A stretch of DNA of 43,077 nucleotides, from assembly GCF_014648275.1 (NCBI RefSeq), contig NZ_BMQU01000028.1:1-43077 (forward strand). The letters run 5' to 3'. How positions within the stretch are numbered: position 1 is the stretch's first letter; each line of letters begins with the position of its first letter. This document shows, one piece after another, positions 1,466 to 17,683 of this stretch. Origin of the DNA: Pseudomonas laurentiana (GTDB lineage Bacteria > Pseudomonadota > Gammaproteobacteria > Pseudomonadales > Pseudomonadaceae). The notes under the pieces are model-generated. The model was not told the DNA's origin. It ran no database searches and worked only from the letters and a program-made list of their open reading frames with translations. Made by a program: the position numbers and the translations under genes.

Positions 1466-2431
1466 TCAGTGAGGGTGCCCGCTTGCCGCGGCGCGTACTT
1501 CCTTGGCGGTGCAAGCGAAGCGCTGGCGGAAGCTGCGGGCAAATTGAGCCTGATCGCTGAAGCCCCAACGCATGGCCAGTTCGCCGATGGACAAGTGGCA
1601 ATAGGGGTCGTGCAGGTCTCTGTGCACCGCTTCAAGACGGCGTAGACGGATCCATTCGCTGAGGCTGTAGGGGGTGGCCGTGAACAGTTTGTGCAGATAG
1701 CGCACCGACAGCTTGCAGGCGTCAGCGATCATCTGTGGGGCGAGGTCCGGGTTGCCCAGCTGTTGCTCAACGTAGTGTTCAATACGCTGCAAATGCAAGG
1801 CCGCCAGGCTTGAGCTTTCACTGTTGAGTACCCGCTGGTCATCGCGTAGTGCCATCAGCAAGGTTGAGAGCGCTTGCTCCAGCAGCATATGGCGGGCGGT
1901 ATCGTCGCATTCATCGAAGCGTGCCGCACACATTGCCAGTTGGTCGACGAAGATCCTCCCCAGCCCGCGTTTGGCATCGAAGCACAGGCGGGTATAACGT
2001 TCGGCGCCGCGCAGTTGACCATGCAGGGCACGTTCGGGAAGCTTGAACACCCACAGGTCGTTGTCGCTGGCGTAGTGAAAGCGGTAGGGCGCATCACCGC
2101 GCTCGAAGATAAACCCGCCAGGCTGGCAGTGCAGTACGCGGCCGTCCTGTTCGAAGTGCACCTCACTGCGGCGCGGTACCGTGACCAGGTAGCACGCTTC
2201 GCGGTCTTCACTGACCTGGGCCTTGCTGCGCGAGTAACCCAGTTGGGTGGAGCGCAGCCGTGACAGGGTCAACGCGGTGCTCTGGGTTTCCCAGACTTGC
2301 AGGCTGCCACTGAAGCGTGCGCCAGGATCGAAATTCAGGGACAGCGGGAAGTAGGTGCTGCCAATCGCCGCTGCCCAACGTGCCTGGCGTTCGCTGTTGG
2401 GCCAATAGCGGCTGCTGAGTGTGATTGCCAT
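1466..2431 (-). CDS. AraC-family transcriptional regulator
   Basis: 321-residue regulator with an N-terminal AraC-binding-like (FeaR/AraC_binding_2 type) domain and a C-terminal double helix-turn-helix over about the last 100 residues (YLHKLFTATPYSLSEWIRLRRL region, then GELAMRWGFSDQAQFARSFR), the canonical AraC DNA-binding pattern. The start is the ATG giving MAITLSSRY, preceded by GAGGA; a longer reading has no such support. It is the last gene of a minus-strand operon after the HyuA/HyuB-type genes, so the regulator is probably co-transcribed with its targets. From memory, an AraC regulator (OplR) sits beside the lactam-hydrolase genes oplBA in P. putida KT2440. Identity with OplR is an inference, not shown here. 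Confidence 0.9.
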   Translation of the reverse strand: MAITLSSRYWPNSERQARWAAAIGSTYFPLSLNFDPGARFSGSLQVWETQSTALTLSRLRSTQLGYSRSKAQVSEDREACYLVTVPRRSEVHFEQDGRVLHCQPGGFIFERGDAPYRFHYASDNDLWVFKLPERALHGQLRGAERYTRLCFDAKRGLGRIFVDQLAMCAARFDECDDTARHMLLEQALSTLLMALRDDQRVLNSESSSLAALHLQRIEHYVEQQLGNPDLAPQMIADACKLSVRYLHKLFTATPYSLSEWIRLRRLEAVHRDLHDPYCHLSIGELAMRWGFSDQAQFARSFRQRFACTAKEVRAAASGHPH

Positions 2432-2526
2432 GGCCGATCCTCGTGTCTTTTTTATTGTGAGGACGGTGCCGGGGGTAGGCCCCCGGCACCGTTGGTTTGC
2501 CATAATTTGCCAATGCTTACCTAAGG

Positions 2527-4617
2527 TCAATCACTGGGCGTCAGCCGGTAGGTTGCAGAAGGCGCCAGGGTGGCTTGCCAGCCCGGTGGCACGACGATGT
2601 TGGTCGTCGCTTCCTCGATCACACATGGGCCTTGGACCGTGTGCCCGGCTTGCAGCCGATCACCGTTGTACACAGGGGTTTCCTGCCAGGCGTCTTGCGC
2701 GTCGAAGAGCATGGCCCGGTGAGCGATCGGGCTGGCCGGATCAAGGTTGGCCTGCACCGGCAGTTCCGGCATCGGTGGCCGTTGCAGGCGGGCGATCACC
2801 GAGCACTCCAGGTTGACCAGCTCTGCCGGGCTGTCCGGTTCGCTGTAGGAGAAAAGTGCCTTGTGTCGCTCATGGAACGCCGTGCGCAAGGCCTGAAGGC
2901 GCTCAAGGTCCAGTTGATCGCAGTCCAGCTCGACACTGCATTCGTGGACCTGGCCCAGGTAGCGAATCTCCAGGTTGTACAGGCACTCGACCGCATTACC
3001 CGCACTGAAACCATCGTCGCGCAGGTTGTTCAGGCCGCGTTCGCGCAGGTTGCGCAGGGTTTGGTTGAGCAGTGGCAGGTTCACCAGGTCGTCATCCAGG
3101 CGCATCGGCAAGGTGCTCAGTTGGTCGTAGCGGATGTCCGAGAGGATCTGCCCGAATGCGCACAGGCCCGAGGCGACTTTAGGGATCAGTACCACTTTGC
3201 TGCCGATCTCTTCGGCCAGGCGCATGACGTGCATGCCCGCTGCGCCACCGGCGCCGATCAGGGCAAAGTCACGGGGGTCGTAACCGCGTTCGACCGATAC
3301 CCGGCGAATGCCGCTGACCATGTTCAGGTTGACCAGGGTGATGATGCCGATGGCCGCCCGCTCGACGCTGATGCCCAGCGGTTCGGCGATCTTGTGGCGA
3401 ATGGCATCAATCGCTGCTTGTCGGTTCAGGCGGATACTGCCGCCCAGCAGGGCACCATCGGCCAGATAGCCCAGCGCCAGGTTGGCGTCGGTGACGGTCG
3501 GTTCGACGCCACCTTTGCCATAACAGACCGGGCCAGGGTTGGCGCCGGCACTGCGTGGGCCAACCTGCAACATGCCAAAGTCGTCCAGGTACGCAATCGA
3601 ACCGCCGCCGGCGCCGAGGGTTTCGACCTGGATCATCGGTACGCCAATACGGTAGCGCAGGAAGTCGGTGTCTTTGCTGAAGTTGGTTCGCCCGGACTTG
3701 CTCAGCGTGATATCGAACGAGGTGCCGCCCATGTCCACGGTGATCACGTTGTCGATGCCGAACGGCGCGGCCACGCACAGCCCGGCTTGTGGTGCGGACG
3801 CCGGGCCGGAGTTGATTGCATTGACCGCACGTTCGCGCATTACCACACCCGGCGCCAGGCCACCGTTGGACTGGAAGTAGCGGGTGGGTTGTTGCGCGCC
3901 GAGCTCTTCGAACAGCGCATCGATCCGTTCGATGTAGCGGCCCATGACCGGGCTCAGGTAGGCGTTGACCACGGTGGTCGAGGTCCGGGTGTACTCACGA
4001 ATCTGTGGGAATACCTCGTTGCCGGTGCACACGAACACGTGGGGCAGGGCTTCACGGACCATGGCTGCGGCACGTTGCTCATGGCTGGGGTTGCGCACCG
4101 ACCAGACGAACGAGATGGCCACGGCCTTGACGTCCTGCTCGCGGAAGTACTCGATGGCTTCACGGATGGCGTCTTCGTCAAGCGGGCTGTACTCGCTGCC
4201 ATCACTGAGGATGCGGCCACCGACAGGGCGGCGTAGATGGCGCGGTACCAGCATGTGCGCCGGCGGGTAGCTGGCATCGTAGCGATGGCCATCCTCCTTG
4301 TGGCCCAGGCGGATCTCCAGGCTGTCTTCATGGCCGTCGGTGCACAGCAGGCCGACCTTGACGCCGGTTTTTTCGATCAGGGCATTGAGGGCCACGGTGG
4401 TGCCGTTGATGCACAGGTCGCAGTCGGCAATGATCTGTGCCGGCGTGCGGCCGATGGCGTCAGCGATTTGCGCCAGGCCATTACGGATGGCGAGGGTGCC
4501 GTCCTGTGGCGTCGAAGGGGCTTTGAACAACTGAACGTTGCCACTGCGGTCAGCGAGGATGAAGTCGGTGAAGGTGCCGCCGGCGTCGATGCCCAGGCGA
4601 TATTGCTGCTTAGTCAT
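2527..4617 (-). CDS. hyuA: Hydantoinase A/oxoprolinase-type subunit (candidate lactamase subunit)
   Basis: 696-residue large subunit of the ATP-dependent hydantoinase/5-oxoprolinase family, which couples ATP hydrolysis to opening of cyclic amide rings. The N-terminal nucleotide-binding signature LGIDAGGTFTDF is at residues 8-19 and a second, DMGGTSFD, at about 295-302; the C-terminus is the usual beta-rich domain. The start giving MTKQQYRLGID was chosen because it places the phosphate loop at the normal distance. An upstream ATG at 4653, overlapping the end of the B-subunit gene, is possible. Members act on N-methylhydantoin, acetone, acetophenone, 5-oxoproline or lactams, so the substrate cannot be read from sequence. 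The context (5-aminovalerate/glutarate genes next door) favours a lactam such as 2-piperidone. The symbol is the family name only. Confidence 0.9.
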   Translation of the reverse strand: MTKQQYRLGIDAGGTFTDFILADRSGNVQLFKAPSTPQDGTLAIRNGLAQIADAIGRTPAQIIADCDLCINGTTVALNALIEKTGVKVGLLCTDGHEDSLEIRLGHKEDGHRYDASYPPAHMLVPRHLRRPVGGRILSDGSEYSPLDEDAIREAIEYFREQDVKAVAISFVWSVRNPSHEQRAAAMVREALPHVFVCTGNEVFPQIREYTRTSTTVVNAYLSPVMGRYIERIDALFEELGAQQPTRYFQSNGGLAPGVVMRERAVNAINSGPASAPQAGLCVAAPFGIDNVITVDMGGTSFDITLSKSGRTNFSKDTDFLRYRIGVPMIQVETLGAGGGSIAYLDDFGMLQVGPRSAGANPGPVCYGKGGVEPTVTDANLALGYLADGALLGGSIRLNRQAAIDAIRHKIAEPLGISVERAAIGIITLVNLNMVSGIRRVSVERGYDPRDFALIGAGGAAGMHVMRLAEEIGSKVVLIPKVASGLCAFGQILSDIRYDQLSTLPMRLDDDLVNLPLLNQTLRNLRERGLNNLRDDGFSAGNAVECLYNLEIRYLGQVHECSVELDCDQLDLERLQALRTAFHERHKALFSYSEPDSPAELVNLECSVIARLQRPPMPELPVQANLDPASPIAHRAMLFDAQDAWQETPVYNGDRLQAGHTVQGPCVIEEATTNIVVPPGWQATLAPSATYRLTPSD

Positions 4618-4656
4618 GGTAAAAGTCTCTGCATTGCTCAAGGGGCGGGGCATCAA

Positions 4657-6402
4657 TCACTGTGCGGCGCGGATGGCGTGTGTCGCGGCTTCGTCGAGGT
4701 TGCCGTTGCTGTCGAGCACCACGCCGTATTCCAGGCGGGCACCTTCAGGCGACACCAGGCCGTTCAGCACGTCGTTCAGTACCGTCGCGACAGGCCGGCG
4801 CATCGGGTTGCCGTAACCCCCTCCGCCTGGGTTGACGTTGATGACCCGTTCGCCCGGTTGGGCGGTCAGCAGTGCGTTGTAGGTAAAGTGCGCCTCTTCG
4901 CCGTCGACCTTGCGGTGGATCAGGCGGCCAAGTTTGGGTTCGAGCAAGACGTTGGTCGCACCGGCAGCACCTGCGGTTGGCAACTGTCGGCCTTCGCCGA
5001 AACCCACTACGGTCATGGCATGGTTCAGCGGCTCGATTTCGATGCGCGTGCCCGAGCCACCTCTGAATTCACCGGCGCCACCGCTGTCGGTCATCAGGCT
5101 GTAGCGATGGATCAACACCGGGTAGGAGTACTCCAGCAGCTCAATATCACCGGACATCAGCGCCCCGAAGCAGCACAGCGGGCCACAGGCCGGCCAGCCA
5201 TCCATTTCCTTGTTTGCACCGGCGCCGGAAATGATCGAGGCCAGCACCATGGTCACGTACTCGTCGTTGCCGTTACGCGGGTCGTGCCCGGCAATGTTGA
5301 TGCCGCTGGCGTGGCCCCAGGAGGCGGTGACGCGCTCCGGTGCGGCTTGCTCGAGCGCCTGACGCACGGCGTCGGCGAGGGTTTCCATGGGTGTGGTGGT
5401 GCTGTTGACGTGGGGGGCGGGTTCCTGCGCGTTGCACAGGGTGCCGGGTGGCCCGAGGTCGACGCTGACACAGCGGTAGAGCCCTTCGTTGTAGGGCGGT
5501 GGCACCTGGGCAAACATCATCAACCCCAGGTACACCCCGGAGACCGAGTTGCCGGCATAGGAGTTGATGAAGTAAGGCACCTGTGGCGGGCTTTCGATCA
5601 ACACGTGGGCTTCGTCGCCGCGAATTTCCACCTGGGCGGTGATCGACAGCTGGCCCAGGCCATGGCCTGAGTCCTCAAGTACCGCCGTACCGCTGTAGAC
5701 ACCGTCAGGAACGTCACGCAGCAAGGCACGCATATGGCGGTCAGCCATGTCTTTCAACTCGGCGATACAGGCGCGGACCTGCTCCACGCCGTAACGGTCG
5801 AGCAGCTCGATCAAGTGCCGTTCGCCGACACTGCAGGCGCCGTATTGAGCATTCAGATCACCTTCCTGGTAAGCCCGGGCGCGCATGTTGGTCAGCAACA
5901 GGTTGATGACGTCTTCGCGGCGCTGGCCTTTGGACCACAGCTTCACGGGCGGAATGCGCAGGCCTTCGGCGTAGATCTCCTTGGCGTCCGGGTTGTAGCC
6001 GGCCGGCACCGGGCCACCGATGTCGGTCAGGTGGCCTTTGCAGACCGTCCAGAACACCAGTTCCCCTTTGTAGAAAACCGGCTTGTACATGCAGCAGTCG
6101 AGAATATGACTGCCGTTGTAGGCAGGGTCGTTGTGATAGATCACGTCGCCTTCGAGGATGTCATCGCCAAAGAAGCCGGCAACGCACTTCATCGCGGGGA
6201 TCAGCGACCCCAGGTGTATGGGAATGTCCTGGCCTTGCAGGATCATTTCCGGCAGGTGGTCGAAGAGGGCGTTGGAATAGTCGTGTGCCAGGTTGAAAAC
6301 ACTCGAACGGCCGGTTTTTTCCAGCGTCAGGGTCATTTCCCGCTGCGCGGTTTCGAGTGCGCCTCGCACGACGGCCAGGGTGATCGGATCTACTGTACTC
6401 AT
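4657..6402 (-). CDS. hyuB: Hydantoinase B/oxoprolinase-type subunit (candidate lactamase subunit)
   Basis: 581-residue HyuB-family subunit, partner of the adjacent HyuA-type protein. It begins MSTVDPITLAVVRGALETA, a typical family N-terminus, and carries the conserved metal-site region HDYSNALFDHLPEM, the HVNSTTTPMETLADAVRQAL segment and a glycine-rich C-terminal stretch (NPGGGGYGNPMRRP). A GGTGA ribosome-binding site precedes the ATG. The B gene comes before the A gene, separated by 39 bases or fewer depending on the A start, so the two should be made in equal amounts. Hydantoinase, oxoprolinase, acetone carboxylase-like and lactamase members all look like this; assignment to 2-piperidone or caprolactam is inferred from neighbours. 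Confidence 0.9.
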   Translation of the reverse strand: MSTVDPITLAVVRGALETAQREMTLTLEKTGRSSVFNLAHDYSNALFDHLPEMILQGQDIPIHLGSLIPAMKCVAGFFGDDILEGDVIYHNDPAYNGSHILDCCMYKPVFYKGELVFWTVCKGHLTDIGGPVPAGYNPDAKEIYAEGLRIPPVKLWSKGQRREDVINLLLTNMRARAYQEGDLNAQYGACSVGERHLIELLDRYGVEQVRACIAELKDMADRHMRALLRDVPDGVYSGTAVLEDSGHGLGQLSITAQVEIRGDEAHVLIESPPQVPYFINSYAGNSVSGVYLGLMMFAQVPPPYNEGLYRCVSVDLGPPGTLCNAQEPAPHVNSTTTPMETLADAVRQALEQAAPERVTASWGHASGINIAGHDPRNGNDEYVTMVLASIISGAGANKEMDGWPACGPLCCFGALMSGDIELLEYSYPVLIHRYSLMTDSGGAGEFRGGSGTRIEIEPLNHAMTVVGFGEGRQLPTAGAAGATNVLLEPKLGRLIHRKVDGEEAHFTYNALLTAQPGERVINVNPGGGGYGNPMRRPVATVLNDVLNGLVSPEGARLEYGVVLDSNGNLDEAATHAIRAAQ

Positions 6403-6482
6403 GGGTCACCAAGAATCTTGTTGTTATCTGGGTGGGGTAGGACGGATGCCTGACCCACGACACAAAGCTACGCGTACCTTGA

Positions 6483-6500
6483 GGCGGCAAGCTTGTCGCC
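6483..6500. promoter_or_regulatory. Near-perfect palindrome in porin-hyuB gap
   Basis: 18-base palindrome GGCGGCAAGCTTGTCGCC (one G-T pair) in the 141-base gap between the outer-membrane protein gene and hyuB. It may be an operator or an mRNA hairpin. There is no independent evidence for either, and AraC proteins usually bind direct rather than inverted repeats. Confidence 0.3.
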
Positions 6501-6543
6501 GCGTGCACTGTTTTTTGATACTGAGAGCACTGGTACGGGGGGG

Positions 6544-7722
6544 TTAGAAGTAGTAGCCGATGTTGGTGTAAAGCTGGTTCTCCCATTGATTGCTGCCGCC
6601 GGCGCCCAGGCTTTGGGTAAAGCTGCTGCCTCCGATGTACGGATCGTTCTTGCCGTGCAGCCACTCCACCGCTATCCAGAGGTCCTTGAGTGAGAACGAC
6701 GTACCAAGGATGAAACGCTGGGAGTCATGGAATGCACTGTCGCGCTTATCGAAGAGGCTGTAGTTGCCGTACAGCTTGATGCCCGAAAACCAACCGTAGT
6801 TTCCAGCGATGTCATAGCTGAGGTCGGTCACATACAGGTCACCCTTTGCCGCAACGTTGAATGTCGCGTCATAGCTGCCGAACGTGACGTATTGATCGTT
6901 ACCAGGGTTTCTCGGCGTCATGTCCTGTCGTGTGGCTTGCAGTTGAACGCCCCACGGACCGTTCTTGCCCAGGTAGTGCACAGCCACGGCGTTACGTCGA
7001 CCGCTGTCATGGGTGTCGCGGTTCTCCAGCTCCGAGGTGAGTACCGATGCGCCGAGCTCAGACTGCCAGTTGCCGAGCTTCAGGTTGCGGGCCAGGCGCC
7101 CGACGAGAATGTTGCGCTCCTGGTTGTTGCTGCCGTCTGCCACATAGGCGTCGGTCTTGGCGACGCTGGTCGAGTAGGTACGTCCACCGCGGCTGGTGCC
7201 CTGGCCTTGATCAATCGGACGCAGGTAATAGCCGGCCTGCAGGTTCCAGTCCGGGGTGCTCTGGATGTACTTGATGCCCAGGTCCTGAATGTCCTCCAAC
7301 CCGATCACATTGCCCAGCGACTCAAAGAAGGGGCTGCCAAAGTAGGGCTGCAAGCCAAACGGAATGTGGTTCAGGCCGACCTGGACCTGCTGCGAGTCGT
7401 TGAACTTGTAGCCCAGCCAGGCATATTCAGGGAAAGAGATGTCGCCGATGCTGTCTGTGTACGAAAAGGGATAGGCATCTCCGTAGAAGCGGTATTTCGC
7501 AGCGCCAATCCAACTGCTGGAGGTGTAGGTGGCCGTCAGGAAAAACGTATCGAAACTGATTTTTTCCAGGTCTTGATCCGGGTCGTAGTCAACGCGAGCA
7601 CGGATGGCGCCGCCAATGTCCAGGTTTTCATTGATGGCCACGGCAAAGGCAGGAGCGCCGTACAGCGTCACCAGTTGTGCAAAAACTGCAGCCGTCACCG
7701 TGCGATAGTTCACTGAACGCAT
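6544..7722 (-). CDS. Outer-membrane beta-barrel porin-like protein
   Basis: 392-residue protein with an N-terminal signal peptide (hydrophobic stretch TVTAAVFAQLVTLYGAPAFA) followed by alternating-hydrophobicity strands rich in aromatic girdle residues. It ends in NIGYYF: the C-terminal Phe is the BAM-recognition signature of outer-membrane barrels. It is not a typical OprD sequence and the exact family was not recognised. The ATG chosen (MRSVNYRTV) has AAGGA eight bases upstream; a longer reading would put extra residues before the signal peptide. Its position between the permease and the HyuB/HyuA genes suggests it lets the operon's substrate across the outer membrane, which is an inference. 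Confidence 0.82.
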   Translation of the reverse strand: MRSVNYRTVTAAVFAQLVTLYGAPAFAVAINENLDIGGAIRARVDYDPDQDLEKISFDTFFLTATYTSSSWIGAAKYRFYGDAYPFSYTDSIGDISFPEYAWLGYKFNDSQQVQVGLNHIPFGLQPYFGSPFFESLGNVIGLEDIQDLGIKYIQSTPDWNLQAGYYLRPIDQGQGTSRGGRTYSTSVAKTDAYVADGSNNQERNILVGRLARNLKLGNWQSELGASVLTSELENRDTHDSGRRNAVAVHYLGKNGPWGVQLQATRQDMTPRNPGNDQYVTFGSYDATFNVAAKGDLYVTDLSYDIAGNYGWFSGIKLYGNYSLFDKRDSAFHDSQRFILGTSFSLKDLWIAVEWLHGKNDPYIGGSSFTQSLGAGGSNQWENQLYTNIGYYF

Positions 7723-7760
7723 GTGTATGTCCTTGGGTCTTATTGTTGTTTTAGGCGCGT

Positions 7761-7794
7761 AAAAAAGCCGAACCGCAGTCATCCCGCGGCTCGG
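7761..7794 (-). terminator. Intrinsic terminator/attenuator inside the hydantoinase-type operon
   Basis: On the minus strand CCGAGCCGC and GCGGTTCGG pair (9 bp with one G-U, nine-base loop) and are followed by C and six T. It lies 50 bases after the permease stop and about 40 bases before the porin start, so it would end or attenuate transcripts from the permease gene before they reach porin-hyuB-hyuA-araC. A second small perfect hairpin (CTTTCAG/CTGAAAG, 7807-7823) lies just upstream of it. Confidence 0.65.
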
Positions 7795-9239: not shown

Positions 9240-9268
9240 ATTATAAAAAGGCTCATCCGCCCGATAAT
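9240..9268 (-). promoter_or_regulatory. Candidate promoter of the permease-porin-hyuBA-araC operon
   Basis: On the minus strand a perfect -10 hexamer TATAAT (9245-9240) lies about 35 bases before the permease ATG. The hexamer 17 bases upstream (ATTATC) is a poor -35, as expected of a promoter that needs an activator such as the AraC protein encoded at the end of the same operon. Read by eye only. Confidence 0.4.
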
Positions 9269-9351
9269 TGCGCGTGGCTGCACTGTCTTTTGTGGGGCCG
9301 TGCATTGAGACCCTGTGGAGCGTTGGCGTGGCGTATTCACTGACACCGAGT

Positions 9352-9495
9352 GGATGCTATCGCAGGCAAGCCAGCTCCCACAGAAAAGCGGTGTTCTGCG
9401 CTGATCCCCGTGGGAGTTGGCTTGCCAACGATTGCGGGCACCGCGCAGTTACTGGCACCGTGCCGATGCCATCGCAGGCAAGCCTGCTTCTACAG
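9352..9495. repeat. Three REP-like elements between two catabolic operons
   Basis: Three copies of an imperfect palindrome with core CGCAGGCAAGCC and flank CTCCCACAG or CTTCTACAG: 9352-9383 (plus), 9408-9440 (minus) and 9462-9495 (plus). The first two are convergent and can form one long stem. This is the usual form of Pseudomonas REP/BIME elements, which occur between genes and may affect transcript ends or gyrase binding. Together with the terminator at 9541-9567 they fill the 400-base gap, in which no gene is seen. Confidence 0.8.
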
Positions 9496-9540
9496 AACAT
9501 GCAGTGTTCTGCGCGGGTCGCTGTGGGATTGAGCATCGAA

Positions 9541-9567
9541 AAACAAACCCCCGCTAAAAAGCGGGGG
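9541..9567 (-). terminator. Intrinsic terminator of the glaH-lhgO-davDT operon
   Basis: On the minus strand CCCCCGC, a six-base loop TTTTTA and GCGGGGG are followed by TTTGTTTTT. It lies about 40 bases beyond the stop of the last aminotransferase gene and is a textbook rho-independent terminator for the whole operon. Confidence 0.9.
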
Positions 9568-9605: not shown

Positions 9606-10982
9606 CTAGCGGTTGGCCTTGAACCAATGCTCGGTCTCGTCAAGCGAGCGGGCAAAGCGTTCGACGATCAGGCGGATTTCCGCTTCGCTGGAGATCAACG
9701 GCGGGCAGAAGGCAATCGCGTCACCCATATTGCGGGTGATCATGCCATGCGCCTGGGCGCGACCGGCGAGGAAACGTCCCAGTTTGCCGGTGACCTCGAA
9801 CGGGGTCTTGTGCTCGCGGTCGGCAACCAGTTCGACCGCCGCAATCAGGCCACGGCCACGGATCTCGCCCACCCGTGGGTGGTCGGCGAATTGATTCAAC
9901 CCCTCATGAAGAATCGCGCCCATGGCCGCAGCATGCTCGACCAGGTTTTCTTCTTCGATGATCTTCACGTTTTCCAGCGCAACTGCTGCTGCCACCGGAT
10001 GGCCGCTGGCGGTAAAGCCATGGCCAAGGGTGCCCAGCGAATGGCTTTGGTCAGCAATGCCCTGGTACAGCGCATCGTTGATCAGGATCGCCGAGATCGG
10101 TTGGTAGGACGAAGACAGCTGCTTGGACAACACCATCACGTCCGGTTTGATGCCGAAGGTCTGGCTGCCGAACAGGTTGCCGGTACGACCGAACCCGCAG
10201 ATCACCTCGTCTGCGACCACCAGCACGTCATATTTGCGGCAGACGGCCTGGATTTTTTCCCAGTAGGTGCGTGGCGGCACAATGACGCCGCCGGCACCCA
10301 TCAAAGGCTCGCCATAGAAGGCTGCGACGGTTTCCGGGCCTTCACGCAGGATCAGGCTTTCCAGCTCGGCAGCGAGACGGTCGGCAAATTGCTCTTCGGT
10401 TTCACCTGGCAGCGCATGGCGATAATGATGCGGTGCACCGACGTGGAAGAAGCCCGGCAACGGCACATCGAAGCCGCGCTGGTTGGCTGGCAAGCCGGTC
10501 AGGCTGGCGCTGACGATGGTGATGCCGTGGTAGCCGTTGAGGCGGCTGATGAACTTCTTCTTGGCCGGTTTGCCAATGGCGTTGTTGCGATACCAGATCA
10601 GCTTGACCACGGTATCGTTGGCTTCGGAGCCCGAGTTGGTGAAGAACACCTTGCTCATGGGGACCGGCGCCATTTCGATCAGCTTGTCCGCCAGCTCGAT
10701 GCTGGGGGCATGGGCCTTGTGGCTGAACAAGTGGTAGAACGGCAACGTGCGCAATTGTTGCTCGGCCGCCTTGATCAGGCGTTCGTTATTGAACCCCAGG
10801 GCAGCACTCCACAGGCCGGACATGGCCTCGATGTATTGCTTACCCTGGTCGTCATACACATAGATGCCTTCGCCGCGCTCAATGATCAGCGGGCCAAGCT
10901 CTTCGTGCATGCGGGCATCGGTGTAGGGGTGCAGTTGATGTTGGACATCTTTTTCAGCCAACGACAGCGCTTGCTTGCTCAT
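9606..10982 (-). CDS. Class III PLP omega-aminotransferase
   Basis: 458-residue class III (omega) aminotransferase. Visible landmarks are MSGLWSAALGF, the phosphate-binding FFTNSGSEANDT loop, NGYHGIT, VVADEVICGFGRTG with the Asp that contacts the PLP ring nitrogen, and VLSKQLSSSY with the Schiff-base Lys. The type resembles pyruvate-dependent omega-transaminases for putrescine, GABA, beta-alanine or 6-aminohexanoate more than the 2-oxoglutarate-dependent GabT encoded four kilobases upstream. It is the last gene of the operon, 34 bases after the APC permease gene, with a terminator just beyond. It likely deaminates an omega-amino acid imported by the permease or released from a lactam. The exact donor is unknown. 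Confidence 0.88.
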   Translation of the reverse strand: MSKQALSLAEKDVQHQLHPYTDARMHEELGPLIIERGEGIYVYDDQGKQYIEAMSGLWSAALGFNNERLIKAAEQQLRTLPFYHLFSHKAHAPSIELADKLIEMAPVPMSKVFFTNSGSEANDTVVKLIWYRNNAIGKPAKKKFISRLNGYHGITIVSASLTGLPANQRGFDVPLPGFFHVGAPHHYRHALPGETEEQFADRLAAELESLILREGPETVAAFYGEPLMGAGGVIVPPRTYWEKIQAVCRKYDVLVVADEVICGFGRTGNLFGSQTFGIKPDVMVLSKQLSSSYQPISAILINDALYQGIADQSHSLGTLGHGFTASGHPVAAAVALENVKIIEEENLVEHAAAMGAILHEGLNQFADHPRVGEIRGRGLIAAVELVADREHKTPFEVTGKLGRFLAGRAQAHGMITRNMGDAIAFCPPLISSEAEIRLIVERFARSLDETEHWFKANR

Positions 10983-11016: not shown

Positions 11017-12429
11017 TCAGCGCCCAAGCGCGACAGGGATGCCACCTTGTGCGGTCGCCAAGGCCTTGGCTTTGGCATGGCGACGGCTGACCAGCAAGCC
11101 CGAGCAGACCACCAACAGGCTCAATACGCCGGTCGAGATGACTTCAAGCTGATGATCGGGACGGAACAGCATCACGATGAGCACGGCGCTGATGAACAGG
11201 ATCACACCCCAGGTCAGCCACGGGAAAAGCCACATGCGGTAGTTGAGCGTCTTGCCTTCGGCGATCAGCTTCTTGCGCATACGCAGCTGCGAGATGGCGA
11301 TGACCAGGTAGACCAGCAGGGCAATGGTGCCGGAGCTTGCCATCAGGAAGCCGAATACCTTGGACGGTACCAGGTAGTTGGCAATGACCGTCAGGAACGC
11401 CGCGCCGGTAGACAGCAACACGGCATAGATCGGTGTGCCGATGCTGTTGGTGTAACGGGCGCAGACCGGGGCTTCACCGCGTTTGCTGAGCGAGAAGAGC
11501 ATGCGCGAGGCGGTGTACAGCGAGGAGTTCAGGCAACTGGTCACCGACGTCAGGACGACCACGTCGATCAGCAGCTTGGCGTGCGGAACACCCAGGATTT
11601 CCAGTACGGTGACGTAGGAGCCTTGGGAGGCCAGACGCGGATCGTTCCAGGGTACCAGGGCGACGACGATGAAGATCGAGAGGATATAGAACAGCGTAAT
11701 CCGCCAGATCACCGAATTGGTGGCCCGGGAGATCTGCTTCTCGGCAGCGTCGGACTCGGCGGCAGCAATGGTAACCACCTCGGCGCCGAGGAACGAGAAC
11801 ATGGTGATCAGCATGGCACTGATGACTGCGCCAAAGCCGTTAGGCATGAAACCGCCATTGTCCCACAGGCGCGAAACGCCGCTGACCGGGGCATCGGGCA
11901 GCAGCCCGAAAATGGCGCAGGCGCCCAACGTGATGAAACCGACGATGGCGAGCACCTTGACCAGTGCCAGCCAGAACTCGAACTCACCATAGTTTTTCAC
12001 GCTGGCCAGGTTGGTTGCGGTCAATACCAGGGTGATGATCAAGGACAGTACCCAGATGTCCCACTCGGGCATCCAGGTGTTAATGATGGTGGCGGCGATG
12101 TTGGCTTCGATCGGAATGATCAATACCCAGAACCACCAGTACAACCAGCCGATACTGAACCCCGCCCATTTGCCGATGGCGCGGTCTGCGTAGGTGGAAA
12201 ACGAACCGGTATCCGGTGACGCAACGGCCATTTCGGCGAGCATGCGCATCACCAGCATGACCAGAATGCCGGCAAAGACATAGGCCAGGACGGCCCCTGG
12301 ACCCGCCTCGGCAATCGCACGCCCAGAGCCGACGAACAGCCCGGCGCCAATCACCCCGGCAATCGAGAGCATGGTGACATGACGGGATTTAAGCCCGTGA
12401 CTCAAGTTGTTCTTATGTTTGTTGTTCAT
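11017..12429 (-). CDS. gabP: APC-superfamily amino acid permease, GabP-like
   Basis: 470-residue inner-membrane permease with about twelve hydrophobic segments and the APC helix-1 signature IAGVIGAGLFVGSGRAI. It also has the MFSFLGAEVVTIAAAES region and an SVTSCLNSSLYTASRMLFSLS segment, typical of the amino acid transporter/GABA permease group. An AAAGGT ribosome-binding site precedes the ATG. It sits between davT and a second omega-aminotransferase, so its probable substrates are 5-aminovalerate and/or 4-aminobutyrate. The substrate is inferred from context; general amino acid permeases of the same family look alike. Confidence 0.82.
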   Translation of the reverse strand: MNNKHKNNLSHGLKSRHVTMLSIAGVIGAGLFVGSGRAIAEAGPGAVLAYVFAGILVMLVMRMLAEMAVASPDTGSFSTYADRAIGKWAGFSIGWLYWWFWVLIIPIEANIAATIINTWMPEWDIWVLSLIITLVLTATNLASVKNYGEFEFWLALVKVLAIVGFITLGACAIFGLLPDAPVSGVSRLWDNGGFMPNGFGAVISAMLITMFSFLGAEVVTIAAAESDAAEKQISRATNSVIWRITLFYILSIFIVVALVPWNDPRLASQGSYVTVLEILGVPHAKLLIDVVVLTSVTSCLNSSLYTASRMLFSLSKRGEAPVCARYTNSIGTPIYAVLLSTGAAFLTVIANYLVPSKVFGFLMASSGTIALLVYLVIAISQLRMRKKLIAEGKTLNYRMWLFPWLTWGVILFISAVLIVMLFRPDHQLEVISTGVLSLLVVCSGLLVSRRHAKAKALATAQGGIPVALGR

Positions 12430-12450
12430 GGTCTTACCTTTCTAACGCGA

Positions 12451-12534: not shown

Positions 12535-12544
12535 GGAGGAGGTC

Positions 12545-13825
12545 TTACGCCAATTCGTTGAAGCACTCACCGATGATCGTCAGACCGCGGGCAAGGTCCT
12601 CGTCGCTGACGGTCAGTGGTACCAGGATGCGCAGGACGTTGTAGTAAGTACCGCACGACAGCAGGATCAGACCTTTCTCACGAGCGAGGGCAACGATCTT
12701 GCCGGTCAGTTCAGCGGCCGGCTTGTGTACGTCGCCACCTTCGCACAGCTCCACGGCAACCATGGCGCCGAGGGTCCGCACTTCAAGAATGCTGGCATGC
12801 TGCTCAGCGATCTTGCGCAGGCCGGTACCGAGGATCTCGCCCACGGCCTTGGCACGGTCAAGCAGGTGCTCTTGCTCGAAGGCTTCGATGACCGCCAGTG
12901 CTGCGGCGCACGACACCGGGCTGCCGGCATAGGTGCCGCCCAGGCCGCCCGGGGCAACGGCGTCCATGATTTCGGCTTTGCCCGCTACGCCCGCCAGTGG
13001 GAAACCACCGGCGATGGATTTGGCGAAGGTGGTCAGATCGGCGGCGACGCCCATCTGTTCCATGGCGAAGAAGGTACCGGTACGACCGGCCCCGGTTTGT
13101 ACTTCGTCAGCGATCAGGACGATGCCGTGCTCGTCGCACAGGGCGCGCAGACGCTGCATGAAGGCTTTTGGCGCGACGTTGAAACCGCCTTCACCCTGTA
13201 CCGGCTCCAGAATGATCGCGGCGATATCGCTCGGCTGGGCATCGTTCTTGAAGATGCGCTCGATGCTGGCGATGGCCTCGTCGGTAGAGATACCGTGCAG
13301 TTCATTCGGGTACTGAGCGCGGAAGATGCCGCCTGGCATCAGGCCCATGCCCGCGGAGTACGGCACGACCTTGCCGGTCAGCGACAGGGTGTAGTGGGTG
13401 CGGCCATGGTAGGCGCCGGTGAAGGCGATGACACCGGTACGGCCGGTGGCAGCACGGGCGATCTTGATGGCGTTTTCGACGGCTTCGGCACCGGTGGTGA
13501 CCAGCAGGGTCTTCTTCGCGAAGTTGCCGGGAACCAGTGTGTTGAGCTTCTCGCACAGTTCAACGTACGGCTTGTAGGCGAACACGTGGAAGCAGGTGTG
13601 GGTCAGCTTGGCTTGCTGTGCTTGCACGGCAGCCATGACTTTCGGGTGCAGGTGGCCGGTGTTCAGAACGGCAATGCCGCCTGCGAAGTCGAGGTACTCA
13701 CGGCCTTCGACATCCCAGACAGTGGCGTTTTCTGCGCGCTCGGCGAAGATCTGGTGGATCTGACCGACGCCACGTGGGATGGCGTCCAGACGACGTTGCT
13801 GCAGCGATTGGTTGGTGTCGCTCAT
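12545..13825 (-). CDS. davT: 5-aminovalerate/4-aminobutyrate aminotransferase
   Basis: 426-residue class III PLP aminotransferase of the GabT/DavT type, which moves the omega-amino group of 5-aminovalerate or GABA to 2-oxoglutarate, giving glutarate semialdehyde or succinate semialdehyde. Landmarks are TTGAEAVENAIKIAR at about 110-124, GAYHGRTHYTLSLT, EPVQGEGGF with the substrate-carboxylate Glu, IADEVQTGAGRTG with Asp240, and FAKSIAGGFP with Schiff-base Lys269. Full length and intact. Because davD, lhgO and glaH lie directly upstream in the same operon, the 5-aminovalerate role fits best, although the family usually acts on GABA as well. It follows davD by 56 bases that contain a perfect hairpin. 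Confidence 0.93.
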   Translation of the reverse strand: MSDTNQSLQQRRLDAIPRGVGQIHQIFAERAENATVWDVEGREYLDFAGGIAVLNTGHLHPKVMAAVQAQQAKLTHTCFHVFAYKPYVELCEKLNTLVPGNFAKKTLLVTTGAEAVENAIKIARAATGRTGVIAFTGAYHGRTHYTLSLTGKVVPYSAGMGLMPGGIFRAQYPNELHGISTDEAIASIERIFKNDAQPSDIAAIILEPVQGEGGFNVAPKAFMQRLRALCDEHGIVLIADEVQTGAGRTGTFFAMEQMGVAADLTTFAKSIAGGFPLAGVAGKAEIMDAVAPGGLGGTYAGSPVSCAAALAVIEAFEQEHLLDRAKAVGEILGTGLRKIAEQHASILEVRTLGAMVAVELCEGGDVHKPAAELTGKIVALAREKGLILLSCGTYYNVLRILVPLTVSDEDLARGLTIIGECFNELA

Positions 13826-13837
13826 TATTACCTCATG

Positions 13838-13857
13838 GACCGCAACGGGTTGCGGTC
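13838..13857 (-). other. Perfect hairpin in the davD-davT gap
   Basis: GACCGCAA, loop CGGG, TTGCGGTC: an 8-bp perfect stem with no U-run on the minus strand. It is one of three intercistronic hairpins in this operon. Confidence 0.7.
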
Positions 13858-13881
13858 TTGTCCGATGTAGAAAGGAAAGGT

Positions 13882-15330
13882 TCAGATACCGATGCAGAGG
13901 TACTTGATTTCCAGGTAGTCCTCGATGCCGTACTTGGAACCTTCACGGCCCAACCCCGAAGCCTTGATGCCGCCGAACGGGGCCACTTCATTGGAGATGA
14001 TGCCGGTGTTGATCCCGACGATGCCGTATTCCAGGGCTTCGCCCACACGGAACACTCGGCTCAGGTCGCGGGCATAGAAGTAGGAGGCCAGGCCGAACTC
14101 GGTATCGTTCGCCATGGCAATGACCTCGGCCTCATCCTTGAAGCGGAACAGCGGCGCCAGTGGGCCGAAGGTCTCTTCCTTGGCTACCGCGGCATTACGC
14201 GGTACGTCGACCAGAATGGTCGGTTCGAAGAAGGTGCCGCCCAGTGCATGGGGCTTGCCGCCTGCAACGACGCGAGCGCCTTTGCTCACGGCGTCGTCGA
14301 TGTGTTCCTGGACTTTGGCCAGGGCCTTGGCGTCGATCAGCGGGCCAGTGGTGATGCCATTTTCCAGGCCGTTGCCGATGTTGAGCTTGGCGACGGCTGC
14401 CGTGAGTTTTTCAACGAAGGCATCGTAGACACCGTCCTGAATGTACAGGCGGTTGGCGCAGACGCAGGTCTGGCCGTTGTTGCGGTATTTGGAGATCAGC
14501 GCACCGTCGACAGCCGCGTCCAGGTCGGCATCGTCAAAGACGATGAAGGGCGCGTTGCCGCCCAGTTCCAGGGAGACTTTCTTGATGTCCTTGGCGCACT
14601 CGACCATCAGTTGGCGACCGATTTCAGTCGAACCGGTGAAGGTCACCTTGCGCACGATCGGGTTGCCGGTCAGCTCGCCGCCGACTTCACCCGCGCTGCC
14701 CGTCACGACACTGAACACGCCTTTCGGGATGCCGGCACGCTCGGCCAGTTCGGCCAGGGCCAGTGCCGAGTAGGGGGTCTGGGACGCAGGCTTGAGCACC
14801 ATGGTGCAACCGGCGGCCAGTGCCGGGCCGGCTTTGCGGGTGATCATGGCGGAAGGGAAGTTCCACGGGGTGATCGCCGCCGTTACACCGATAGGCTGCT
14901 TGAGGACCATCAGGCGCTTGTCGACCTGATGCCCTGGGATCATATCGCCGTAGATACGCTTGGCTTCTTCGCCGAACCATTCCAGGAACGATGCGGCGTA
15001 GGCGATCTCGCCTTTCGATTCGGTCAGTGGTTTACCCTGTTCCAGGGTCATCAGGCGAGCCAGGTCTTCCTGGTTGGCCATCATCAATTCAAACCATTTA
15101 CGCAACTTGACCGCACGTTCCTTGGCAGTCAATGCACGCCAGGCCGGCAGCGCACGGTCCGCGGCTTCGATGGCGCGACGGGTTTCGGCCGCGCCCATCT
15201 TCGGCACGGTACCGATCGTTTCGCCAGTGGCCGGGTTGGTGACCGTAATGGTCTGGCCGTTGTCGGCCTCGACCCAGGCACCGTCGATGTAGGCGTGTTG
15301 GCGAAACAGTTTCAAATCGTTGAGTTGCAC
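13882..15330 (-). CDS. davD: Glutarate/succinate semialdehyde dehydrogenase
   Basis: 482-residue NAD(P)-dependent aldehyde dehydrogenase of the GabD/DavD type, oxidising glutarate semialdehyde (or succinate semialdehyde) to the dicarboxylic acid. It shows PWNFPSAMITRKAGPALAAG, FTGSTEIGR in the cofactor fold, the general-base Glu255 in LELGG, and the catalytic Cys289 in NNGQTCVCANR. The start is GTG, not ATG: GAGGAA lies six bases upstream and the resulting N-terminus (MQLNDLKLF) matches the family, whereas a longer reading begins with a proline-rich stretch overlapping lhgO. It follows lhgO by 13 bases. The neighbours indicate the glutarate role. Confidence 0.94.
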   Translation of the reverse strand: MQLNDLKLFRQHAYIDGAWVEADNGQTITVTNPATGETIGTVPKMGAAETRRAIEAADRALPAWRALTAKERAVKLRKWFELMMANQEDLARLMTLEQGKPLTESKGEIAYAASFLEWFGEEAKRIYGDMIPGHQVDKRLMVLKQPIGVTAAITPWNFPSAMITRKAGPALAAGCTMVLKPASQTPYSALALAELAERAGIPKGVFSVVTGSAGEVGGELTGNPIVRKVTFTGSTEIGRQLMVECAKDIKKVSLELGGNAPFIVFDDADLDAAVDGALISKYRNNGQTCVCANRLYIQDGVYDAFVEKLTAAVAKLNIGNGLENGITTGPLIDAKALAKVQEHIDDAVSKGARVVAGGKPHALGGTFFEPTILVDVPRNAAVAKEETFGPLAPLFRFKDEAEVIAMANDTEFGLASYFYARDLSRVFRVGEALEYGIVGINTGIISNEVAPFGGIKASGLGREGSKYGIEDYLEIKYLCIGI

Positions 15331-15343
15331 GTTGAGTTCCTCG

Positions 15344-16618
15344 TTACTTGGTCGCGGCGGATGCCGCTGCCACGGCAGGCCGGGCGGTGGTGGCGGGCTT
15401 GACGAAGCTGGCGCCCTGACTGGCAAGCTGTTCACGTACCTTGTCGACGATATGGGCGCCGATAGGGATGGCCGAGGTCGCGGCAGGGGAAGGGGCGTTA
15501 CACACGCTGATGCTGCGTTTGGTGTTGACGAACAGGAAGTCGTCGATCAACTTGCCATCCAGCGAAACGGCCTGCGCGCGCACACCGGCCGGGTAGGCGG
15601 TGAGGTCGCTCTTGACGATGCTCGGGCAGTACTTCTGTACTTCCTTCAGGTAACCACCCTTGAACATCGAGTTCTTCATCTCGATCAGGCCAGGGCGCAG
15701 GTTCTTCATCAGAACCTTGAGAATGCCCGGGGTCGTCAGGGTTTCGAACAGGTCGGAAATCGAGATGTCGGTCTTGCGATAACCTTCGCGTTTCATCGCC
15801 AGCACCGCGTTCGGCCCGACGGTAACGGTGCCATCGATCATGCGGGTCAGGTGGACGCCAAGGAACGGCATGGACGGATCCGGGATCGGATAGATCAGGT
15901 GATTGACGATCTGGTTGTGCTGCTTGGGCAGCAGGTAGTACTCACCACGGAACGGGCAGATGATGAAGTTCGGCTTGACCCCCAGCATGCGCACCACACG
16001 GTCAGCCATCAGGCCCGAGCAGGTGATCAGGAAGCGTCCGTGGTACTCGCGGTCACCTGTGCGTACCAGCACTTCATCGGCGCGCTCGTCGATGCCGTTC
16101 ACTTCACTGTTGTAGCGAATTTCGCCACCGGCAGCTTCGAACTCGCGTCCCATGGCGGCGGTTACTTGTGCGTAGTTCACGATGCCGCTCGACGGTACGA
16201 AGATGCCGCCCAGGCCGACAATGTTCGGCTCGCGCTCGTGCAGTTCCTCAGCGCTCAGCCATTCGCGTTTCAAACCGTTGGCTTCGGTGCGGTCCCACAG
16301 TGCACTCATGCGCTGCATTTCCAGCTCGTTGGTTGCCACCAACAGCTTGCCGCACTCGTCATAGCGGATGCCGTGCTTGTCGCAGAACGCCTTGGTGGCC
16401 TTGTTACCTTCCAGGCAGAAACGTGCTTTCAGGCTGCCGGGGGTGTAATAGACGCCGGCATGAATCACGCCACTGTTATGGCCGGTCTGGTGTTTGGCCG
16501 GGCCGGATTCTTTTTCCAGCAACAGGATTTTTGCGTCGGGGTAAACCTGGATCAGTTGCATGGCCGTGGACATGCCCACGATGCCGCCACCGATGATAAT
16601 GAAGTCGTACATAGCCAT
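15344..16618 (-). CDS. lhgO: L-2-hydroxyglutarate oxidase/dehydrogenase
   Basis: 424-residue FAD enzyme oxidising L-2-hydroxyglutarate to 2-oxoglutarate, passing electrons to the membrane quinone pool in characterised bacterial members. The dinucleotide-binding IIGGGIVGMSTA is at residues 8-19. HQTGHNSGVIHAGVYY and PFRGEYYLLP are family signatures. The C-terminal 25 residues are an Ala-rich tail (PATTARPAVAAASAATK) that is longer and less ordered than usual. It is the second gene of the operon after glaH and consumes its product. The second ATG (MYDFIIIGG) is an equally possible start; neither has a strong ribosome-binding site. Confidence 0.95.
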   Translation of the reverse strand: MAMYDFIIIGGGIVGMSTAMQLIQVYPDAKILLLEKESGPAKHQTGHNSGVIHAGVYYTPGSLKARFCLEGNKATKAFCDKHGIRYDECGKLLVATNELEMQRMSALWDRTEANGLKREWLSAEELHEREPNIVGLGGIFVPSSGIVNYAQVTAAMGREFEAAGGEIRYNSEVNGIDERADEVLVRTGDREYHGRFLITCSGLMADRVVRMLGVKPNFIICPFRGEYYLLPKQHNQIVNHLIYPIPDPSMPFLGVHLTRMIDGTVTVGPNAVLAMKREGYRKTDISISDLFETLTTPGILKVLMKNLRPGLIEMKNSMFKGGYLKEVQKYCPSIVKSDLTAYPAGVRAQAVSLDGKLIDDFLFVNTKRSISVCNAPSPAATSAIPIGAHIVDKVREQLASQGASFVKPATTARPAVAAASAATK

Positions 16619-16656
16619 TAGCCTGCACCCACCTGAATAAGGTTGTTTTGAGATAC

Positions 16657-16685
16657 GACGAAGGCCACCCAGTGGTGGCCTCGTC
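16657..16685 (-). other. Hairpin in the glaH-lhgO gap
   Basis: GGCCACC, loop CAGT, GGTGGCC, extended by GACG/CGTC around a bulged A. No U-run follows on the minus strand. It is the first of three intercistronic hairpins in the operon. Confidence 0.65.
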
Positions 16686-16705
16686 GCTTCAGCGTGTTGG
16701 GCGCA

Positions 16706-17683
16706 TTACTGGCCGCGCTTGTACAGGGTTTTCTGATAGCTGATGTAGCCGCGCTGACGCATCAGCTCGCGACGCAGTTCCGGGTGCGGGGTGAAGCGAT
16801 CACGACCGTGCAGCCAGAACATGTTGTTGACCAGCACGAAGCTGCCAACCGGTACCGGTACCGAAAGCTTCTTCTGGCTGCCTTCGATCGACTCGGACAT
16901 GGCGTTCAGCCAGATACCTTCCTCGAAGTCCTGCGGCTGCACGAACTGGTCGATGTAGCGCATGGTTGGGCGGCCTTGGTCGTCATTGTCAAACACTGGG
17001 TGGAAGACATCTTCACGCACGTTTTTGCTCGGTGGTGCGGTGAAACGCATCTCACGGCGTGCCAGTGGGTGGGAGAAGTAGCTGTCGATTTCTTCCCAGT
17101 CGTCCAGGTGCAGCAGCAGGGTGTTGCCACCGACCATGTTCTGCTCGTCGATCTTCATCATCAGCACGTAGTCGGTGTGCTCTTTGACGAAGGTGCCGTC
17201 GTTGTGCAGTTCCATTACACGGTGAGGCTGACGCAGGTAGCTGTCGGAGTTGTCAGTGTTGACCACCACGAAGCGTGCATAGAACTGACCGCTCATGGCG
17301 TCGAAGTTCGAGCGACCGATCAGGTGCGCGATGGCCGAGGAGAATTTCACCATGTCGTCGGCCTGGGTCACGTCACACAGACCTTGTGGCGTTACCAGCA
17401 TGCCGCCAGTAGCACGATCCAGAATGGTGTTCAGCAGTACGGGGCGCAGTGTGCCTTCACACAGTTCGTCGAGGATCTGGCCAACGCGGAAGCGCAGGAA
17501 CGACTTGTACTCCAGCGCCTGTACCGGCCATTGGGCAACAGCGCTGACAAAGGCGTCGACGATTTCCTTGGTGAAGGTCAGTTCCAGCAGGCGCGGAGAC
17601 TGCTTCGACGGGCTGACGGTAAAGCCCTTGGTCTCTACCGGAAGCGGCATAACGGGGTCTTGAATGTGAGTGAAGGCGTTCAT
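16706..17683 (-). CDS. glaH: Glutarate 2-hydroxylase (CsiD/GlaH)
   Basis: 325-residue non-haem Fe(II)/2-oxoglutarate oxygenase converting glutarate, O2 and 2-oxoglutarate to L-2-hydroxyglutarate, succinate and CO2. The iron-binding facial triad is visible as His160 and Asp162 in ELHNDGTF and His292 in FWLHGRD; Arg311 follows at the position expected for 2-oxoglutarate binding. Full family length. AGGAG precedes the ATG. It is the first gene of the glaH-lhgO-davD-davT-gabP-aminotransferase operon, divergent from csiR, so it is the promoter-proximal target of that repressor. The pathway regenerates the 2-oxoglutarate it uses through LhgO. Confidence 0.96.

Follow-up and report, generated by a model that had tools for sequence, protein, structure and literature searches.

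Lactam-opening and glutarate-oxidising genes have been described side by side before. Contig 5 of Pseudomonas jessenii GO3 carries capA and capB, encoding the subunits of an ATP-dependent lactamase, together with genes for an omega-aminotransferase and a GabD-like protein and with lhgO, csiD and csiR (Otzen 2018, PMC6061476). Pseudomonas putida KT2440 possesses a member of the same lactamase group, OplBA, in an operon controlled by the AraC regulator OplR (PMC11879879, PMC11683335), and in Escherichia coli the csiD-lhgO-gabDTP genes stand under the control of CsiR (PMC6265302). Here we describe a locus of Pseudomonas laurentiana in which genes of both kinds adjoin. The window, the whole stretch of 43,077 nucleotides that was analysed, comprises positions 1-43,077 of contig NZ_BMQU01000028.1, which is contig C28 of a genome of 5.2 Mb (G000); the locus occupies 1466-17683, with csiR beyond its right edge. 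We read it as a two-unit pathway that would convert a C5 lactam, most likely delta-valerolactam (2-piperidone), to 2-oxoglutarate under two-stage control, and give this reading a probability of about two in three.

Gene identities were derived from profile searches with Pfam and NCBIfam, and the starts of capA, N and P were read separately and are given as approximate. All eleven genes named in a first-pass annotation of this DNA are present as open reading frames (ORFs) on the minus strand, ten of them identified by profile. They are transcribed in the order glaH, lhgO, gabD, gabT, gabP, omega-aminotransferase, N, P, capB, capA and R, and csiR is divergent from glaH. N denotes the NCS1-type permease gene, P the porin-like gene, B capB, A capA and R the AraC-type regulator gene. 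The features are:

17835-18590, plus strand: csiR, GntR-family repressor of the csiD (glaH) operon (NF008576 CsiR, 399.9 bits, cut-off 218)
17746-17774, minus strand: csiD/glaH promoter, -35 TAGACA, 17 bp, -10 TATTTT (hexamers and spacing as in the KT2440 csiD promoter)
16706-17683, minus strand: glaH (csiD), glutarate 2-hydroxylase (NF002814, 512.7 bits, cut-off 333)
15344-16618, minus strand: lhgO, L-2-hydroxyglutarate dehydrogenase/oxidase (NF008726, 607.6 bits, cut-off 299)
13882-15435, minus strand: gabD of the csiD operon, start uncertain, ORF overlapping lhgO (NF008415, 1004 bits, cut-off 828)
12545-13825, minus strand: gabT of the csiD operon, DavT paralogue (NF005985, 801 bits, cut-off 713; tree)
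11017-12429, minus strand: gabP, permease of the gamma-aminobutyrate/5-aminovalerate type (TIGR01773, 732 bits, cut-off 678)
9606-10982, minus strand: capC-like class-III omega-aminotransferase (PjAT family), here the last gene of the csiD operon (PDB 6G4B, 838 bits, residues 2-454)
9548-9567, minus strand: terminator palindrome about 40 bp past capC, 8-bp stem with 7 G-C pairs, then TTTGTTTTT on the minus strand (sequence and hairpin scan)
9331-9528, no strand: two REP-like elements at the junction of the halves (sequence; similar elements in P. defluvii and other loci)
9265-9308, minus strand: predicted OplR-type operator before N, weak alone (44-bp matrix, 4.1 bits, rank 2 in the window)
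7844 to about 9205 (ORF to 9346), minus strand: N, NCS1-type permease, likely a cyclic-amide (lactam) symporter (PF02133, 24.3 bits, cut-off 23.5)
7768-7794, minus strand: hairpin with T-rich tail between N and P, possible terminator or attenuator (hairpin scan)
6544 to about 7722 (ORF to 7782), minus strand: P, predicted outer-membrane porin-like barrel (Porin_O_P, 17.4 bits, cut-off 20.9; barrel model)
6490-6533, minus strand: predicted OplR-type operator before capB, two half-sites 22 bp apart (43.5 bits, top site in the window)
4657-6402, minus strand: capB, lactamase beta subunit, metal site and ring hydrolysis (NF050157, 1138.9 bits, cut-off 1000)
2527 to about 4617 (ORF to 4656), minus strand: capA, lactamase alpha subunit, ATP-dependent activation (NF050156, 1177.2 bits, cut-off 1000)
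1466-2431 (ORF to 2530), minus strand: R, AraC-family regulator in the OplR position (AraC_binding_2 and HTH_18)
435-1184, minus strand: etfB, flank (PF01012)

According to the proposed pathway, the first unit, N-P-capB-capA-R, would admit the lactam through the porin-like P and the permease N. CapA would spend ATP to activate it, and CapB, with its bound metal, would hydrolyse it to 5-aminovalerate; R, as an OplR-type AraC activator, may sense the lactam and act via the boxes before capB and before N. Conversion of 5-aminovalerate to glutarate would fall to aminotransferases and aldehyde dehydrogenases, namely the local GabT and GabD, a canonical-type pair elsewhere in the genome and perhaps CapC. 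Glutarate would lift CsiR repression of the second unit, csiR/glaH-lhgO-gabD-gabT-gabP-capC, and GlaH and LhgO would oxidise it to 2-oxoglutarate. The two units were probably joined recently in the lineage of the window, at the REP-like elements.

The lactamase subunits are close homologs of the CapAB of P. jessenii GO3 (PDB 6YRA): CapA is identical to chain A in 608 of 695 residues and CapB to chain B in 540 of 580. All ATP-site, metal-site, channel and pocket residues that were checked (7 in CapA and 20 in CapB, with the roles given in PMC8453981) are identical to those of 6YRA, among them Asp11 and Asp295 at the ATP site of CapA and the metal ligands Asp41, His99, Asp102 and His124 of CapB. 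The first-pass annotation had proposed that these HyuA/HyuB-type proteins open a lactam, and profile cut-offs, likeness to 6YRA, residues and placement all put them in the CapAB/OplBA group and not among the N-methylhydantoinases; a check for placement among N-methylhydantoin or 5-oxoproline enzymes found CapAB far closer, with 1396 bits for CapA against 6YRA and only 385 bits against the N-methylhydantoinase 7HK5, no confirmed 5-oxoprolinase being among the enzymes compared. The pair is accordingly classified as an ATP-dependent lactamase of the CapAB/OplBA type. An identity as 5-oxoprolinase or N-methylhydantoinase, to which only the Pfam family names and the PDB molecule name of 6YRA chain A (5-oxoprolinase) point, is hardly credible and was rejected, since both proteins pass the CapA and CapB equivalog cut-offs and lie far from 7HK5; moreover, 5-oxoproline hydrolysis by GO3 CapAB was not detected in the assays given in the available text of PMC6061476. 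In vitro, the homologous OplAB acts well on delta-valerolactam, on caprolactam at most at 25% and on gamma-butyrolactam not or in traces (PMC11033972).

The second unit contains glaH, lhgO, gabD, gabT and gabP in the order of a csiD operon with csiR nearby, as judged by profiles, and glaH is the single match of its kind in the genome according to the genus survey described below. The same five genes occur in the same order in E. coli, where csiR lies downstream (PMC6265302); in the window, by contrast, csiR is divergent, capC is appended and the lactam module follows. The glaH promoter has the hexamers and spacing of the KT2440 csiD promoter (PMC6667623). Of the E. coli CsiR-type boxes, TTGTN5TTTT is absent between csiR and glaH, and ATGTN5TTTT has one match per strand there. 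A chemoreceptor-type gene (18635-20656; CtpM model 321 bits, cut-off 900) adjoins csiR in the window and is also found in P. defluvii (L120); it might sense a compound of the pathway.

A second adjacent gabD-gabT pair is located at G000:C1:241977-244898, its products being 85% (GabD) and 76% (GabT) identical to the window copies. When the window GabT was searched in 12 named-strain genomes, 11 matched at a strict limit: P. defluvii, P. akapageensis, sp. 30_B and P. jinjuensis each contain a csiD-type GabT (87-100%) and a 76-79% copy, and the remaining seven only the 76-79% copy. The csiD-type copies formed one clade (98/93, bootstrap not yet stable), which includes the window gabT; separately from it, the C1 copy grouped with that of P. 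putida NBRC 14671. Because of this separation, the gene labelled davT in the first-pass annotation is better classified as a csiD-operon GabT paralogue, and orthology to DavT was rejected; here the NBRC 14671 copy stands for the P. putida type, and the canonical-type pair would be that on C1. The gabD copies (davD in that annotation) were compared by identity only. The closest solved relative of the last gene product of the operon is 6G4B, which we take to be PjAT (CapC), the record name being generic. The extra aminotransferase had been thought to widen the substrate range; its CapC/PjAT-like nature is confirmed, yet by itself it does not extend the range to 2-pyrrolidone, a substrate disfavoured by analogy with OplAB, which shows no or trace activity on gamma-butyrolactam (PMC11033972).

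The expectation that a lactam is taken up, opened and burned from one locus holds in so far as the lactam-opening and glutarate genes adjoin; they do not form one unit. A single operon for the whole block was rejected on account of the terminator after capC and the REP-like boundary, and the block is best described, from these predicted signals, as two or more transcription units that differ in their predicted regulators. Promoter and terminator scans overall gave no excess over shuffled sequences. The elements at the junction are presumably REP elements. The closest relative by CapB in the named-genome scan is P. defluvii WCHP16 (99%, best 80 of 161). In that genome, complete B, P and N and the greater part of A lie in a 6.7-kb stretch with 94% identity to the window. 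Past N the neighbourhood is a different one, with genes of the enoyl-CoA hydratase and MFS types; a contig end cuts off the R part of the module. The capC-gabP-gabT stretch (95%) and the csiR-glaH stretch (93%) are on contigs other than that of the lactam module. After capC, P. defluvii has the hairpin of the window and REP-like DNA, and REP-like DNA also precedes its N, so that elements similar to those of the window occur at both matching edges; they are dispersed in other loci too. Since the halves lie apart in this closest relative, their joining in the lineage of the window looks recent, and recombination at REP elements may have been the mechanism. The pairing of lactam opening with glutarate oxidation, put forward in the first-pass annotation, stands; a first joining of the halves was rejected because GO3 contig 5 already has it (PMC6061476). 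Upstream of capB in P. akapageensis (L004, about 240 bp, before position 10001), what is left is an N-type box and the end of the P coding sequence; N and P seem to have been lost by deletion, according to an alignment read by eye.

Linkage of the two halves was assessed in named genomes, where a scan for capB found 161 relatives, of which the best 80 were kept; all counts out of 80 and the L-numbered loci rest on these. A locus was considered linked if csiR, lhgO or glaH lay within 10 kb. This applied to 17 loci from the four genera Pseudomonas, Halomonas, Oceanospirillum and Marinobacterium; 16 of the 80 were cut by contig ends, and L061, with capC at its edge, was left uncounted. The linked loci show about seven layouts:

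T1 (L009, L014, L020, L021): N-P-B-A-R followed by csiR/glaH-lhgO-capC-gabD; in L021 the sequence is cut off before N
T2 (L022, L023, L035): csiD block first, then N-P-B-A-R
T3 (L024, L026, L027, L030, L032): gabT-gabD-lhgO-glaH/csiR in divergent arrangement, with gabP seen in three of the loci, followed by N-P-B-A-R
T4 (L031, L041): convergent
T5 (L042): Halomonas
T6 (L053): Marinobacterium
T7 (L050): Oceanospirillum, only csiR seen

The layout of the window itself occurs in none of these best 80 of 161 loci. The GO3 cluster has close homologs of the CapAB and the aminotransferase of the window, differs from it in order and orientation and corresponds to T1; no gabP is reported and no gabT described in the available text on GO3 (PMC6061476), whereas in the window the operon is complete, with glaH-lhgO-gabD-gabT-gabP-capC. 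Within the P. putida group, L034 and L036 differ from the window in having neither N nor P nor csiD-operon genes within 10 kb. On a tree of CapB plus CapA, built by a quick method from 81 rows, with 22 forks left open and 17 rows uncounted, the linked state requires at least 8 changes, gains and losses together; the window and P. defluvii fall in a clade of 20 rows, none of whose remaining members is linked, and 13 of these have full flanks. A genus survey of 399 Pseudomonas genomes, counted by profile cut-off, found CapB in 32, GlaH in 46 and both in 22 (Fisher 3e-16, relatedness ignored). The two genes lie within 11 kb of each other in 10 of the 22, over 650 kb apart in 3 and on different contigs in 9. 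The co-occurrence of CapB and GlaH, close in 10 of 22 genomes, is not due to chance, with the reservation that the statistics ignore relatedness. For the window itself, a chance rearrangement that made the halves neighbours without functional coupling would agree with the separate transcription units, the recent REP-bounded junction, the separation of the halves in P. defluvii and P. akapageensis and the 12 of 22 genomes in which the genes were not shown to be close; we nevertheless regard it as very unlikely, given that order and orientation vary among the linked loci, that these come from several genera and involve one or the other of two glutarate routes, and that ten genomes have both genes within 11 kb.

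The CapAB proteins of P. chengduensis 402 (L020) and P. marincola (L021) are nearly identical to those of P. jessenii GO3, and those of P. mosselii SJ10 share over 99% with GO3 (PMC6061476); this near-identity is a sign of recent transfer between species. Between P and capB, L020 carries a group II intron (ltrA; L020:7886-9820) 99.5% identical to a copy on a P. aeruginosa plasmid, in a locus that is otherwise GO3-like. Older work cited in PMC6061476 reports caprolactam plasmids. In PLSDB, neither the L020 locus nor the window module is covered to 80% by any record; L020 has 314 matches there, and among the matches listed (15) all fall on the intron. Relatives of CapB at 60-80% identity are present in 23 plasmid records of PLSDB, none from Pseudomonas.

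The aligned capB promoters share two half-sites of the type AGTGCNC, 22 bp apart, followed by a CAAGCC tail, and a similar box recurs in the N promoters. To train a 44-bp matrix, 16 capB promoters were taken from loci that lack P and in which no linkage was seen (contig ends cut three of them; in L056 an N-like gene lies farther off); the window, L003 and L004 were left out. The best site of this matrix in the window is the capB box with 43.5 bits, compared with 11.3 for the best of 100 shuffles. Among 30 test loci, the site was found before capC in all seven T1 and T2 loci with 27-41 bits (best of five shuffles per locus, at most 3.7). It ranked in the top four before N in 19 of 20 Pseudomonas loci with N, being missed in L020 and not exceeding shuffles in L011 and L013; outside Pseudomonas (eight loci), it was clear in L044 and L050 and weak or absent in six. 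Before capC, the matrix finds no site in the window or in the T4 loci, nor does it in the stretches of P. akapageensis and P. defluvii that carry csiD-operon genes. A two-site pattern matched the genome of the window exactly only at the two window sites, with two more at 3 mismatches and one in a reversed control; as the pattern was drawn from these sites, the search tests uniqueness, not existence. The capB box is conserved at the sequence level, and R would be the protein that binds the boxes. An AraC-family gene lies within 500 bp downstream of capA in 75 of the 80 named loci, and the best NCBIfam match of R is FeaR, below its cut-off.

The operator would also explain a feature of the GO3 proteome. 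CapA, CapB, the aminotransferase and the GabD-like protein appear in its table of caprolactam-induced proteins, and lhgO, csiD and csiR are drawn as not significantly upregulated (PMC6061476). A box before capC-gabD, as read in the GO3-like relatives, would account for induction of the aminotransferase and GabD-like protein and not of LhgO and CsiD, provided that CsiR responds to glutarate.

Several observations weigh against delta-valerolactam as substrate or against parts of the proposed scheme. Linkage is not the rule, as 46 of the 80 loci have full flanks without csiR, lhgO or glaH. The N site of the window, although second with the 44-bp matrix, scores only 4.1 bits, a value reached by 8 of 100 shuffles, and ranks tenth with a 28-bp matrix; its support comes from relatives, in which the place before N is conserved. 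CapC is known to transaminate 6-aminohexanoate. CapAB was discovered with caprolactam and assayed on it, and PjAT too was characterised on it in GO3 (PMC6061476); deletion of oplBA abolished growth of an engineered P. putida on caprolactam (PMC11879879). The pocket residues of the window are those of GO3, so that the sequence does not separate a C5 from a C6 lactam, and only 137 proteins were identified in the GO3 proteome, which makes the statement 'not upregulated' weak (PMC6061476). Caprolactam could then be the physiological substrate, with CapBA forming 6-aminohexanoate, CapC and GabD leading to adipate and beta-oxidation, and GlaH and LhgO being neighbours with another job. The CapC homolog and the flanking etfB would suit this route, etfB being found likewise near the thiolase and CoA-transferase genes of L020. 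The genes beside the L020 module encode a 3-oxoadipyl-CoA thiolase (740 bits against a cut-off of 622), a CoA-transferase (492 bits, below cut-off, with succinate--glutarate CoA-transferase as its nearest model) and EtfBA. We consider caprolactam unlikely here, because the capC of the window sits in a glutarate-type operon and lacks the operator box seen in seven GO3-like loci, and because OplAB prefers valerolactam (PMC11033972). In addition, the best match to the L020 CoA-transferase in the genome of the window is a gene on contig C38 with 55%, so that the GO3-type adipate gene was not found (one query; other adipate routes were not searched), whereas P. akapageensis has a 90% match. A second etfB copy, 93% identical, is located at G000:C43:427-1173, and the window starts inside an etf pair. 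Farther along, the stretch 25358-42839 contains a tRNA-Leu gene, the molybdate transport genes modC and modA, ahpF and cobF, and looks like ordinary chromosome.

The two transport proteins would serve uptake of the lactam. N just passes PF02133 (24.3 bits) and stays far below the cut-off of TIGR00800 (36.2 bits, cut-off 353); its predicted fold (predicted local distance difference test, pLDDT, 81) is nearest to CodB and Mhp1 in the PDB, carriers of cytosine and hydantoins, and N is likely a lactam symporter by this model. P has no Pfam match at the default limit, only a sub-threshold one to Porin_O_P: the window protein does not reach the gathering score for OprO/P-type porins (17.4 versus 20.9 bits), which relatives pass (L009 with 23.6 and L054 with 21.8 bits). 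A barrel model of moderate quality (pLDDT 67), nearest to general porins, predicts P to be a porin-like barrel. Among 43 loci titled Pseudomonas, linkage to csiD-operon genes was seen in 14 of 19 with P, in none of four with N only and in none of 20 with neither N nor P seen, seven of which were cut by contig ends. The permease fold, together with the activity of CapAB family members on several cyclic amides (PMC8453981, PMC6061476), would also permit another natural cyclic amide, such as a substituted 2-piperidone or a cyclic peptide-like compound, to be the true substrate and to yield 5-aminovalerate or glutarate. This we judge improbable, more so than caprolactam, as the neighbouring genes fit an unsubstituted C5 amino acid and OplAB acts well on plain valerolactam (PMC11033972).

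The delta-valerolactam reading is further consistent with loci in which the module adjoins genes of a glutaryl-CoA type. Seven of the 23 plasmid loci were examined. In two of them, from Paracoccus sp. MA (NZ_CP087599.1) and P. versutus, R-B-A-N is accompanied by gabD-, gabT-, gcdH- and gcdG-like genes, with identities to proteins of the P. laurentiana genome of 41, 57, 71 and 55-56%, respectively; the other five lack such a gene set. With the window, the Paracoccus sp. MA locus shares gabD- and gabT-like genes next to capB, capA, R and an NCS1-type permease; in place of glaH and lhgO it has gcdH- and gcdG-like genes. Likenesses to gabT, gcdH and gcdG adjoin the module in Novosphingobium (L078), and L050 and L066 have a gcdG-like gene only. 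These labels derive from likeness to two paired genes at G000:C38, next to a LysR-type gene; the CoA-transferase of the pair is nearest to the succinate--glutarate CoA-transferase model (551 bits, cut-off 750), and its acyl-CoA dehydrogenase reaches no curated cut-off. As the labels combine neighbourhood and similarity, with neither protein reaching a curated cut-off, they too count among the points against the scheme. From this gene content, both glutarate routes seem to be present in P. laurentiana. A plasmid of Paracoccus seriniphilus (L202) has R-B-A-N near hpbA, annotated as N-methyl-L-proline N-demethylase, hinting at other cyclic substrates, and the archaeal Haladaptatus plasmid NZ_CP119783.1 (L205) has a 61% CapB relative and a CapA relative near an acyl-CoA dehydrogenase gene with a gcdH match of only 27%.

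Tentatively, R-capB-capA-N may be a portable front end, docked on many occasions and in different layouts on one or the other glutarate route in several gamma- and alphaproteobacterial genera. Delta-valerolactam might then be the usual substrate, because the module has docked repeatedly on both routes. The caprolactam use of the GO3 type might be derived, by way of capC-gabD under a copy of the lactam operator and adipate genes. The GO3 relative L020 has the box before capC-gabD and thiolase and CoA-transferase genes nearby, whereas the window has no such box and a close CoA-transferase was not found in its genome. The window might represent a recently joined C5-type member with two-stage control, by the lactam via R and by glutarate via CsiR.

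No description of the operator or of a repeated capAB/oplBA-csiD joining was found in the open-licence literature, surveyed largely by title, and as far as this survey reaches the repeated linkage in several layouts, the two glutarate routes and the operator have not been described. The analysis turns annotations as hydantoinase or oxoprolinase into a testable pathway and offers a concrete candidate operator for an OplR-type regulator. Genome context further provides a substrate signal for enzymes that are used in work on nylon monomers, and may explain a published oddity, namely the presence of lhgO and csiD in the GO3 caprolactam cluster without visible induction by caprolactam.

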